A DNA stretch of 64,000 nt from Rhodococcus rhodochrous (lineage in GTDB: Bacteria > Actinomycetota > Actinomycetes > Mycobacteriales > Mycobacteriaceae): the NCBI RefSeq assembly GCF_014854695.1, contig NZ_CP027557.1, positions 5,310,891-5,374,890 of the forward strand, in the 5' to 3' direction. The position numbers and the translations under genes are program-made. The notes beneath the pieces are model-generated. The model was not told the DNA's origin. It worked only from the letters and a program-made list of their open reading frames with translations, and searched no databases. Of the stretch, positions 25,610-28,206 are shown piece after piece (position 1 is the stretch's first letter; each line of letters opens with the position of its first letter).

Positions 25610-26503
25610 ATGACCGCTCCCCGCGTCGACGTCCACCAGCACGTCTGGCCGGCACCGTTCGTCGCGGCATTGCGGGCACGCACCCGTGCGCCGCGGCTCG
25701 TCGGATGGACGTTGTACCTCGACGGTGAGCCCCCGTACGAGGTGCGACCCGAGGATCATTCGATCGCCCGGCGGGCCGAGCTCGCGGCGCAGGACGGCAT
25801 CGACCTGGCGCTGGTGTCGTTGTCGAGCCCGCTGGGGATCGAAACGCTTCCCGCGGCCGACGCCGCCGGCCTGCTCGACGCCTACCACGAGGGAGTGCTC
25901 GCGCTGCCGCACCCGTTCGGGGCATGGGCGGCGGCGTCGATCGACGATCCCGATCCCGCGGCGCTGCGCGCGGTGCTCGGGGCGGGCTGCGTCGGCCTCC
26001 AACTTCCCGCCACCGAGTTGGCGGATGCCGACGGCTACGCGCGGTGCGCCCCACTCCTCGACGAACTCGACCGCGTCGGCGCTCCCCTCTTCGTGCATCC
26101 TGGGCCCGCCGCGGCCGACCCGTCGGCTCCGCCGTGGTGGCCGGCGATGGTGTCGTACGTGGCGCAGATGCACACCGCGTGGTTCGCCTGGCACGAGTAC
26201 GGGGCCCCTCGCCTCCCCGGACTGCGCGTGGGGTTCGCGATGCTCGCCGGGCTCGCTCCGCTGCACGCCGACCGGATGGCCGCGCGCGGCGGACCGGCGA
26301 CGATCCCGTCGGCCGGAGTGTTCGTCGACACCTCGTCGTACGGTCCCGAGATCGTCGAGGCCGTGGCGGCCGGGCTCGGCCGCGACCGCGTCGTGCTCGG
26401 GTCGGACCGTCCGTACGCTGCACCGTTGCTGTTCGGCGACGAGCGCGACGAGCCCGTACGGCGACGCAATCCGGCCCGGTGGTTCCGAACGTCACACGAG
26501 TGA
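25610..26503 (+). CDS. amidohydrolase-family protein (Amidohydro_2-like)
   Basis: 297-aa TIM-barrel metal hydrolase. N-terminal 'RVDVHQHVWP' is the metal-binding HxH, 'PLFVHPGPAAADP' carries the strand-5/6 His, and 'DRVVLGSDRPYAAP' the strand-8 Asp. The ATG at 25610 is chosen over an upstream in-frame ATG. Substrate unknown; decarboxylase or hydrolase activity is possible in this family. The leader peptide and cupin gene follow 41 bp downstream. Confidence 0.75.
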   Translation: MTAPRVDVHQHVWPAPFVAALRARTRAPRLVGWTLYLDGEPPYEVRPEDHSIARRAELAAQDGIDLALVSLSSPLGIETLPAADAAGLLDAYHEGVLALPHPFGAWAAASIDDPDPAALRAVLGAGCVGLQLPATELADADGYARCAPLLDELDRVGAPLFVHPGPAAADPSAPPWWPAMVSYVAQMHTAWFAWHEYGAPRLPGLRVGFAMLAGLAPLHADRMAARGGPATIPSAGVFVDTSSYGPEIVEAVAAGLGRDRVVLGSDRPYAAPLLFGDERDEPVRRRNPARWFRTSHE

Positions 26504-26544
26504 AAACCTTGACAGCGCCGCATCCGGCCGCTGAAGTGATCGGC

Positions 26545-26637
26545 ATGCATCTTCCGGCGACCCTGCGGCATCGCAGGCTACATGTGGACTACGTCCGCAT
26601 CGCCGGTGGTTTCTGTGGTTGTCGCGCCTGTCGTTGA
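26545..26637 (+). CDS. Cys-rich leader peptide, putative cysteine-sensing attenuator
   Basis: 30-aa peptide ending 'HVDYVRIAGGFCGCRACR', with three Cys in the last seven residues. 'RR.HVD..R.A...C' followed by Cys codons is the hallmark of actinobacterial leader peptides placed before sulfur and cysteine genes, and Cys-codon uORFs in mycobacteria act as cysteine-responsive attenuators. It ends 73 bp before a cysteine-dioxygenase-like gene, with a hairpin between. Ribosome stalling at the Cys codons when Cys-tRNA is low is the proposed signal (inference). Confidence 0.75.
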   Translation: MHLPATLRHRRLHVDYVRIAGGFCGCRACR

Positions 26638-26663
26638 TCCCGGCCCGACCCCACTTCTTCTGC

Positions 26664-26689
26664 CCGGACGACCCTTCGGCCCCGTCCGG
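26664..26689 (+). promoter_or_regulatory. hairpin between leader peptide and cupin gene
   Basis: CCGGACG (26664-26670) and CGTCCGG (26683-26689) form a 7-bp perfect stem with a 12-nt loop, ending about 9 nt before the GAGGAA ribosome-binding site of the downstream gene. It is placed to act as the translation- or transcription-controlling structure of the leader. Confidence 0.55.
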
Positions 26690-26710
26690 CTCCCGTTTCG
26701 AGGAACCACG

Positions 26711-27211
26711 ATGCCTGCTGCTCTTCTGTCCACCTCCGTGCGCGTCGATCTCACCGAGATCGTCCGTGACATCGCCGCGGACGTCTCCCGCTGGCGGCCG
26801 CTCGTCCGTTTCGACGAGACCGAACGCTGGTACACCCGGCTCGCCGTTGCCGACGACTACGAAGTGTGGTTGCTGAGCTGGCTTCCCGGGCAGCGCACCG
26901 GGATTCACGATCACGGTGGGAGCGCCGGTGCGTTCGCCGTGGCACAGGGACGGGTCCGGGAGGACACCGTCGACCAGCCGTGGTCGGAAGACCTTCCCGG
27001 GCAACGCGTGACACTCTCCCGCACCCGTCTGTCGACGGGTGCCACGCGTCGATTCGACGGTCGGCACGTGCACGAGGTCGTCAACGACGGTCCCGTCCCG
27101 GCGGTGACCGTGCACGCCTATGCCCCCGCACTGGACTCGATGAGCCGATACCGCCTCGAGAGCGGCATCCTCACCCTCGCGACCTCGGAGCGTGCCGGCG
27201 ACGACTGGTGA
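26711..27211 (+). CDS. cysteine dioxygenase-like cupin
   Basis: 166-aa cupin of the cysteine dioxygenase family. Iron ligands appear as 'GQRTGIHDHGGSAGAFAV' (HxH) and a third His in 'GRHVHEVVND'; the C-terminal 'VTVHAYAPALDSMSRYRLE' is typical of actinobacterial CDO. It converts cysteine to cysteine sulfinate with O2, or a related thiol. RBS GAGGAA. Control by the upstream Cys-rich leader fits this function. Confidence 0.82.
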   Translation: MPAALLSTSVRVDLTEIVRDIAADVSRWRPLVRFDETERWYTRLAVADDYEVWLLSWLPGQRTGIHDHGGSAGAFAVAQGRVREDTVDQPWSEDLPGQRVTLSRTRLSTGATRRFDGRHVHEVVNDGPVPAVTVHAYAPALDSMSRYRLESGILTLATSERAGDDW

Positions 27212-27294: not shown

Positions 27295-28206
27295 GTGAAA
27301 CGCTTCGCACGCACCACCGCACTTCTCGCCGTGTACGCATTCGCCCTGGCCGCCTGTTCCGGCGGTGGAGACGAGGATCCCCTCGCCGGGGATACAGCGG
27401 ACGGAGGCGCGATCGTCGTCGGTTCGGCGAACTTCCCGGAGAACGTCCTGCTCGCGGAAATCTACTCGCAGGCACTCGAGAGCGCAGGCTCCGAGGTCAC
27501 CCGCCAGTTCAACATCGGCAGCCGCGAGATCTACTACGACCAGGTCGCCTCGGGTGCCATCACACTCGTCCCGGAGTACAACGGCGCACTGCTCGCCCGG
27601 GTCGATCCCGACAGCACCGCCTCGACGACCGAGGACGTCAATGAGGCCCTGTCCGAAGCCCTTCCGGACGGACTCGAGATCCTGGCCTCCGCACCCGGCG
27701 AGAACAAGGACGCCCTCGTCGTCACCGAGGAGACCGCGCAGCGCTACAACCTGGTGAGCATCGCCGATCTCGCGCCGGTCGCCGGCGAACTCGCCCTCGG
27801 CGGACCGCCGGAATTCGAGACGCGCCGGCAGGGTGTCGTGGGTCTGCGCGAGGTGTACGGGGTCGAGTTCCGCGAATTCGTCCCCACCGACACCGGTGGC
27901 CCCATCACCATCCGCGCGCTCTCGGACGGCACCGTGCAGGCCGCGAACATCTTCACCACCGATCCGTCGCTGAGCACCGAACCATTTGTGGCGCTGGAGG
28001 ACCCGGAATCGATCTTCGGAGCCCAGAACGTCACCCCACTGGTGCACCGCGCCGATCTCGACGACGACGACGTCGCGAAGATCGACGCCGTGTCCGACAA
28101 GCTCACCACCGACACCCTCGTCGTCCTGGTCGGACAGGTGGTCACCGACGGCCGCGACATCGACGTCGTCGCCGAGGAGTGGCTGCAGCAGAACGATCTG
28201 AACTGA
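27295..28206 (+). CDS. osmoprotectant ABC transporter substrate-binding lipoprotein
   Basis: 303-aa lipoprotein: GTG start behind GAGGGAG, signal peptide, and lipobox 'ALAACSGGG' with the acylated Cys at about residue 21. The mature domain is OpuAC-like ('VVGSANFPENVLLAEIYSQALE', 'ALVPEYNGALL' region), as in OpuCC/ProX for glycine betaine, choline or carnitine. First of four clustered transporter genes (spacing 16 bp, then 4-bp overlaps). Confidence 0.88.
   Translation: MKRFARTTALLAVYAFALAACSGGGDEDPLAGDTADGGAIVVGSANFPENVLLAEIYSQALESAGSEVTRQFNIGSREIYYDQVASGAITLVPEYNGALLARVDPDSTASTTEDVNEALSEALPDGLEILASAPGENKDALVVTEETAQRYNLVSIADLAPVAGELALGGPPEFETRRQGVVGLREVYGVEFREFVPTDTGGPITIRALSDGTVQAANIFTTDPSLSTEPFVALEDPESIFGAQNVTPLVHRADLDDDDVAKIDAVSDKLTTDTLVVLVGQVVTDGRDIDVVAEEWLQQNDLN

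Follow-up and report, generated by a model that had tools for sequence, protein, structure and literature searches.

A conserved cysteine-codon leader before a cysteine dioxygenase-family gene of Rhodococcus as a candidate translation attenuator

The locus described here belongs to the 6.09 Mb genome of Rhodococcus rhodochrous and lies within a stretch of 64,000 nucleotides that was analysed as a whole, referred to below as the window. It comprises a short upstream open reading frame (uORF), whose peptide ends in FCGCRACR, and, 73 nt further on, a gene for a cupin of 166 codons (Table 1). An earlier note on this DNA, made from the sequence alone, had described a 30-codon frame with three Cys codons among its last seven sense codons. 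This description holds, and all three codons are TGT. The cysteine dioxygenase (CDO) features that it had ascribed to the cupin are likewise borne out: the protein scores 78 bits against the Pfam model CDO_I (PF05995; cut-off 23), thus above the gathering score, and its alignment with the rat-type CDO chain (PDB 4ubg) retains the YTR, HDH, later His and HxY positions. We take the retained positions to be the three histidine iron ligands, the active-site tyrosine and the arginine of Cys-type enzymes. The best-scoring PDB match, 8qfr, is without the Arg of YTR in that alignment. The cupin is a probable cysteine-oxidising enzyme, and another thiol is a possible substrate. The gene that follows it encodes an OpuAC-type osmoprotectant-binding protein, as is the case downstream of CDO in most loci of the genus. 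Directly upstream (window positions 25610-26500) lies a frame whose product looks by eye like an amidohydrolase and which ends 6 nt before the -35 element; this product has no Pfam match at E<=1, and its best NCBIfam match (E 0.17) is unconvincing.

Table 1. Features of the leader and of the CDO-family locus, with positions counted from the first nucleotide of the window.
Feature	Position	Strand	Description and basis
-35 element TTGACA	26509-26514	+	36 nt 5' of the uORF start; conserved spacing
Putative -10-like box TGAAGT	26532-26537	+	17-nt spacer; 7 nt 5' of the ATG
Cys-codon leader uORF	26545-26637	+	30 codons, ATG to TGA, MHLPATLRHRRLHVDYVRIAGGFCGCRACR; read from the sequence
Predicted three-way junction within the uORF	26555-26605	+	RNAalifold; one compensatory pair
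Junction helix P1 (predicted)	26555-26559/26601-26605	+	
Junction helix P2 (predicted)	26562-26567/26572-26577	+	One compensatory pair (UA to CG)
Junction helix P3 (predicted)	26582-26589/26593-26600	+	Encoded by the HVDYVR codons
Anti-SD segment GUGGUUUCU	26606-26614	+	Predicted to pair with 26701-26709; RNAalifold, MFE, recoding control
Cys-codon stretch	26614-26631	+	TGT at 26614-26616, 26620-26622 and 26629-26631
7-bp hairpin CCGGACG/CGTCCGG	26664-26670/26683-26689	+	Ends 11 nt upstream of the SD
SD and spacer of the CDO gene, AGGAACCAC	26701-26709	+	Predicted partner of the anti-SD segment
CDO start-codon region GATG	26710-26713	+	Predicted to pair with uORF bases 26548-26551
Cysteine dioxygenase-family cupin, 166 aa	26711-27211	+	PF05995 and alignment to rat-type CDO
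OpuAC-type osmoprotectant-binding protein, next gene	27295-28206	+	PF04069, 148.9 bits

Short frames with a Cys-rich tail are not rare as such: the window contains three of them, and 20 Markov simulations give 2.5 on average, so that Cys density alone is at chance level and it is conservation that sets this uORF apart. Loci of relatives were taken from a first search (30 of 42 matching loci). A CDO gene is present in 11 of the 18 genomes of the genus, and all 11 keep the Cys-codon cluster in a frame with a common start position, in one case without a stop codon; the comparison of relatives that the earlier note had called for finds the Cys-codon cluster conserved. A sense Cys-tail ORF lies upstream at 10 of these 11 loci and an antisense one at none, with 1.2 expected from shuffles, so the reported Cys-rich frame before a CDO-like gene is confirmed and its conservation in the genus exceeds chance. 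The locus without a stop, L056, is of the R. zopfii type (with the leader region of L031) and has five Cys codons; since no stop precedes the CDO start, its uORF extends 105 codons beyond that start, in a frame different from that of CDO. Cys codons of seven genus leaders are TGT rather than TGC in a ratio of 26:1, against 24:108 in 37 window ORFs. The HVDxxR pattern noticed earlier holds in part, being strict in 5 of the 11 genus leaders, replaced by HVDLVH in 3 and absent in 3. For codons 1-23, pN/pS is 0.95 over the seven leaders, without sign of peptide constraint, and 0.35 among the five closest.

A TTGAC element stands at -36 from the uORF start in 7 of 7 scored genus loci, the window included, and also in L055, L057 and L006, that is, in all 10 loci with sequence there. 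The -10-like box reads TGACAT or TGGCAT in relatives. This conserved -35 spacing, together with a -10-like box that stands 7 nt upstream of the ATG, makes it probable that the uORF is leaderless, the mRNA beginning at or beside its AUG. A strict sigma-70 consensus scan of positions 26450-26800 found no promoter, and a leaderless-promoter pattern, too strict to accept TGAAGT, matched none of the 11 genus loci.

The uORF is predicted to lock the SD of the CDO gene. RNAalifold, run on eight genus sequences, returned unprompted a three-way junction, a 9-bp anti-SD/SD helix and a second helix, of 4 bp, that joins the 5' end of the uORF to the CDO start codon; the single-sequence MFE structure agrees, with -71.8 kcal/mol and z -3.04, an energy that 2 of 200 shuffles match or go below. 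The anti-SD segment ends on the first Cys codon. Across the genus alignment, 97.6% of the 254 cells of predicted pairs can pair, against 31-51% for slid pairings; lock pairs are broken at two positions in L031/L056, besides the lost uORF stop, and at one in L004. Only one pair is changed on both sides and 133 of 500 shuffles reach the covariation score, which is thus not above shuffles and uninformative on the predicted fold. The predicted lock does exceed synonymous recodings of the uORF: in L001, L002, L005 and L054 none of 60 recodings attained the native SD closure, and in L004 5 of 60 did. For L001, L002, L005, L054 and L004 respectively, 1, 0, 0, 0 and 6 of 60 recodings attained the native difference between the ribosome-free state and a Cys stall, and 1, 7, 0, 0 and 3 that between the stop and the Cys positions. 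The duplex energy between uORF tail and SD is mostly not significant against shuffles (p<=0.05 in 2 of 7 genus leaders, and in 4/29, 1/13 and 3/10 leaders of other classes), in a test that is blunt and whose genus SD segment omitted the last base of the lock. The 7-bp hairpin that had been pointed out near the ribosome binding site is present in the window and is not conserved, being missing in L004 and altered in L003. Rfam gave no match at gathering score in the window and none at E<=1 for positions 26400-26900, and a terminator scan of 26450-26800 found no terminator-like site.

The dependence of the lock on ribosome position was computed with a folding model that forbids pairing beneath the ribosome footprint; it is thermodynamic and ignores co-transcriptional kinetics. 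The scan scored 59 of 63 attempted leaders. Under the rules applied, no leader or SD was recognised in L105, L042, L013 and L022, of which the last three do carry Cys leaders; seven genus leaders were scored, with L055, L056, L057 and L006 outside the scan. In these seven, opening the SD costs 4.9-10.7 kcal/mol without a ribosome, 4.8-10.6 kcal/mol when a ribosome occupies the stop codon and 2.2-4.7 kcal/mol when it occupies the best Cys codon, the last value being lower than the two others in 7/7. Five footprint sizes concur that the SD opens at the early Cys codons; at the last Cys codon it is often closed again. As the SD is freed at early Cys codons and closed at the stop, slow Cys decoding should increase expression, and in a traffic simulation lowering Cys decoding from 10 to 0.3 per second raised SD opening 1.6- to 5.2-fold in 7/7 genus leaders. 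The polarity predicted by these models for the genus leaders is CDO ON at scarce Cys-tRNA. This runs against the reversed logic that the earlier note had proposed, in which high Cys-tRNA lets the ribosome finish and opens expression: at the window locus, as in the whole set of seven, the folding model closes the SD at the stop and opens it at early Cys codons, and in the traffic model slower decoding increases opening. What stands of that interpretation is the conserved Cys-codon leader before a CDO-family gene, related to those that precede sulfur genes; the reversed logic is not supported at this locus, and the hairpin on which it had drawn is not conserved.

From a wider search (182 of 394 genomes), 30 loci together with 56 fetched places, a subset of the matches, were examined. 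Streptomyces carries two CDO paralogues with leaders. CDO1, the high-scoring CDO_I paralogue, has a Cys-tail ORF before 29 of 30 loci (antisense 2, expected 4.4), with a leader ending in ..RRVHMDLVRYAGCVCRPSC; CDO2, with poly-Cys leaders, has one before 22 of 25 (antisense 0, expected 2.2). Other members of the family, mostly with leaders ending in ..ECCR., show 15 of 24 (antisense 3, expected 3.5), and further members of the class, at 6 of 49 loci (antisense 2, expected 3.3), are without clear excess; two of the latter, L170 (LHVDLRMTASALCPC) and L164 (LHIDLQRVLSCGC), have leaders that look genuine by eye. The Cys-leader trait is thus pronounced in certain lineages; others lack it, or it escapes detection there. 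The TTGAC element at -36 recurs in 24 of 29 Streptomyces CDO1 leaders and in 9 of 13 CDO2 leaders, the remaining four having it at 37, and in none of 10 mycobacterial-type leaders. In CDO1 leaders, pN/pS over the last 20 codons is 0.13 (29 leaders), indicating strong constraint on the peptide, and H, D, L, R and Y keep the residue despite synonymous change. The motif HxDxVRxAG is common to Rhodococcus-type and Streptomyces CDO1 leaders. In L121 and L127, class members of one family, two short frames lie 5' of CDO, the one ending in ..MCCGVMRCCCCA or ..MCHGVMRCRCCA and the next containing ..RRIHLDLLLTQGSVC..; these may be tandem leaders.

The Streptomyces CDO1 leaders differ in geometry. Their anti-SD lies at the uORF 3' end, beyond the first two Cys codons (exact CCGTCCTG vs CAGGACGG, an 8-bp complement, in 19 of 29), and in the folding model the SD is mostly closed with a ribosome at the first Cys and mostly open with one at the last Cys or the stop. 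Of four such leaders in the traffic model, L111 goes up, L112 goes down under severe limitation, and L109 and L092 stay nearly flat. In 13 CDO2 leaders SD opening shows no dependence on ribosome position. In mycobacterial-type leaders a ribosome at Cys mostly opens the SD, and one at the stop does so with less regularity; two of three rise in the traffic model, L015 falling. For two CDO1 leaders the recoding control is weak, as 6 and 3 of 60 recodings attain the native closure, and for two mycobacterial-type ones, with 46 and 5 of 60, its outcome is negative or weak.

The earlier note had also placed the window peptide close to leaders that precede sulfur genes in actinobacteria, and the same genome agrees with this. 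Searched with NF042934 (150 of 219 candidates scored), it has 13 places at E<=10, four of them above the cut-off, one of these only with its in-frame neighbours; the window peptide is not among the 13. NF042933 finds nothing above its cut-off (best 38.4 bits). The HVDxxR pattern has 167 matches in the whole genome, 92 on the forward and 75 on the reverse strand, and the reversed pattern has 80; 30 loci were inspected. Leaders recognised by eye in this genome are ..AVDLCRLGGCCCPC close to a rhodanese gene, HVDFKRVCASCC.. upstream of a sulfite reductase-like gene, AVDLCRMGAHMCCR upstream of an FAD/NAD reductase, HVDLCRTRSCLCAF preceding a winged-helix regulator, HVDLCRTASGICPD preceding a protein with weak likeness to luciferases (best Pfam match below cut-off) and HVDLVRVSTAACCRSTL preceding a protein without identification; the first three kinds of gene agree with the sulfur-gene claim. 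In these six leaders, with SDs and starts of our own assignment, the SD was opened at Cys codons in the rhodanese-linked one only, where the stop position was open too. At L174 (G000:C1:854184, minus strand), a leader ..RRRAVDLCRLGGCCCPC adjoins a rhodanese-domain gene and scores 38.4 bits against the Ms5788A model (cut-off 45); the 3' part of this leader pairs with the SD of the gene that follows, and in this Ms5788A-like case the SD opens at the CCC codons. At L181 (G000:C1:3462552, plus strand), the Cys-rich leader HVDFKRVCASCCLPCAACLCADCL lies 5' of a sulfite/nitrite reductase-like gene, and no dependence of the SD on ribosome position was found there. L176/L177 (G000:C1:531951-533470) form a divergent pair of HVDLCR leaders, with a winged-helix regulator (PF00486) and the weakly luciferase-like protein as neighbours.

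The polycysteine leaderless sORF attenuators of mycobacteria (Ms5788A type) were reportedly described by Canestrari et al. in 2020. To our knowledge, Cys-codon leaders are known only before genes of cysteine and sulfur acquisition. As far as the accessible accounts describe the Ms5788A type, the window locus resembles it in having Cys codons towards the end of the uORF, an SD predicted to be locked by the uORF and a cysteine-metabolism neighbour, and its uORF is probably leaderless too; it differs by its catabolic target, a cysteine dioxygenase, by three dispersed Cys codons instead of a run, and by a lock directly 5' of the first Cys codon. The likeness to mycobacterial Cys-uORF attenuators drawn in the earlier note is matched in silico by a conserved Cys cluster near the end and by ribosome-dependent hiding of the SD. 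The models NF042934 ('putative leader peptide', cis_reg_atten) and NF042933 (leader_Ms5788A) have an HVDxxR-like core like that of the window peptide, which matches neither at E<=1 (cut-offs 27 and 45 bits); the Streptomyces CDO1 leader scores 37.1 bits against the former (cut-off 27). The kind of leader is thus already known, down to an NCBIfam model that covers the Streptomyces CDO1 leader, and it is the CDO target that is unexpected. In the accessible text, Cys leaders are described before cys operons of Mycobacterium and P. acnes and before cbs of B. longum (PMC1262725, 2005); like the window, these have Cys codons near the stop of a short ORF before a cysteine gene in Actinobacteria, but they precede biosynthetic genes, and the text available proposes no SD lock. 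Cys leaders in mycobacteria have been in print since 2015 (PMC4633059, in part), and the accessible parts of citing papers describe the mycobacterial polycysteine leaders as acting by SD-lock translation attenuation, ON at cysteine scarcity. Further literature was drawn on in its accessible parts (PMC13236596, PMC9094748, PMC9031893, PMC8079986, PMC4974804). No report of a Cys leader before CDO, and no match to 'HVDxxR' as a pattern, was found in a coverage that leaves out most subscription journals and is thus weak evidence of absence.

The reading that we favour, with somewhat better than even confidence, is a translation attenuator that works through cysteine codons and by which scarcity of Cys-tRNA switches CDO on; in it we infer the start of transcription, the translation of the uORF, the polarity and the physiological purpose. 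The mRNA would start at or beside the uORF AUG. Free of ribosomes, the uORF RNA would fold into the three-way junction, GUGGUUUCU would capture the CDO SD (AGGAACCAC) and the 5' end the start codon, and CDO would be OFF. A ribosome slowed at the first Cys codons would cover the anti-SD, so that the SD would be freed and CDO translated, whereas a ribosome running on to the stop codon would leave the anti-SD free and let the lock re-form. Scarce Cys-tRNA would then mean CDO ON, as reported for mycobacterial cysteine-responsive leaders, and CDO would be part of a cysteine-shortage group alongside this genome's rhodanese and sulfite reductase leaders, perhaps for recycling sulfur from cysteine or another thiol into sulfite.

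The weak point of this attenuator is that induction of a cysteine-degrading enzyme at low cysteine looks wasteful and contradicts simple feedback. The oddity would be solved by sulfur recycling via sulfite, CDO then belonging to a cysteine-shortage response, by a substrate other than cysteine, or by an arrest peptide that stalls, and thereby senses plenty, at high cysteine. The reversed logic, by which plentiful Cys-tRNA lets the ribosome complete the leader and opens CDO expression, suits a catabolic gene, but the window leader and its six scored relatives are closed at the stop and open at early Cys codons, and we consider it unlikely. It is possible for the differently built Streptomyces CDO1 leaders, where the 3'-terminal anti-SD and the opening at the last Cys or stop speak for it; under severe Cys limitation the traffic model predicts less opening in L112 and hardly any change in L109 and L092, but L111 rises. 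The arrest leaders TnaC and SpeFL stand before catabolic operons, and TnaC stalls the ribosome with tryptophan. The window leader is like these in preceding a gene that degrades the sensed amino acid, and unlike them in that ligand-induced arrest is only hypothetical for it. According to this improbable account, actinobacterial CDO leaders would be arrest peptides: the nascent HVDxxR..C or HxDxVRxAG chain would sense abundant free cysteine, or a related thiol, and stall at the Cys codons, freeing the SD and switching CDO ON. Catabolic polarity would then follow from the same stall-opens-SD anatomy, and the constraint on the CDO1 peptide (pN/pS 0.13, last 20 codons, 29 leaders) and the shared HxDxVRxAG motif argue for it. 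Against it, the motif also stands before other sulfur genes of the genome, is missing in 3 of 11 genus leaders and owes part of its conservation to hairpin P3, and pN/pS lends no support over the seven genus leaders (0.95; 0.35 in five close ones). If true, it would be a thiol counterpart of TnaC made from the parts of a starvation attenuator.

Control of transcription, with the leader governing Rho-dependent termination in the gap before CDO, has in its favour that this gap (26638-26700) is C-rich, that the Streptomyces CDO2 leaders have no SD link and that Rho has been suggested for the Cys leaders of mycobacterial cys operons (PMC1262725, in the part accessible). It is quite unlikely given the strong SD lock in the genus, a gap of only 39 nt in L004 and a scan of 26450-26800 that found no intrinsic terminator. 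That the frame is a chance ORF across conserved DNA without regulatory role agrees with the chance-level Cys density of the window, but is hardly credible in view of sense:antisense counts of 10:0, 15:3, 29:2 and 22:0 in four sets, the conserved promoter spacing and the recoding control. Leaders before CDO-family genes in the genus, before two Streptomyces paralogues and before other family members suggest ribosome-sensed cysteine control of thiol oxidation in many Actinobacteria.

The genes downstream of CDO vary with the lineage. A rhodanese-like protein follows CDO1 and the mycobacterial-type loci, and CofD follows Streptomyces CDO2, according to a Pfam check of one locus each. At L034, L035, L041 and L048, the CDO2 paralogue with its poly-Cys leader lies directly 5' of cofD (coenzyme F420 synthesis); at L048, the one locus of the four that was checked, Pfam and NCBIfam agree on the identity of CofD.
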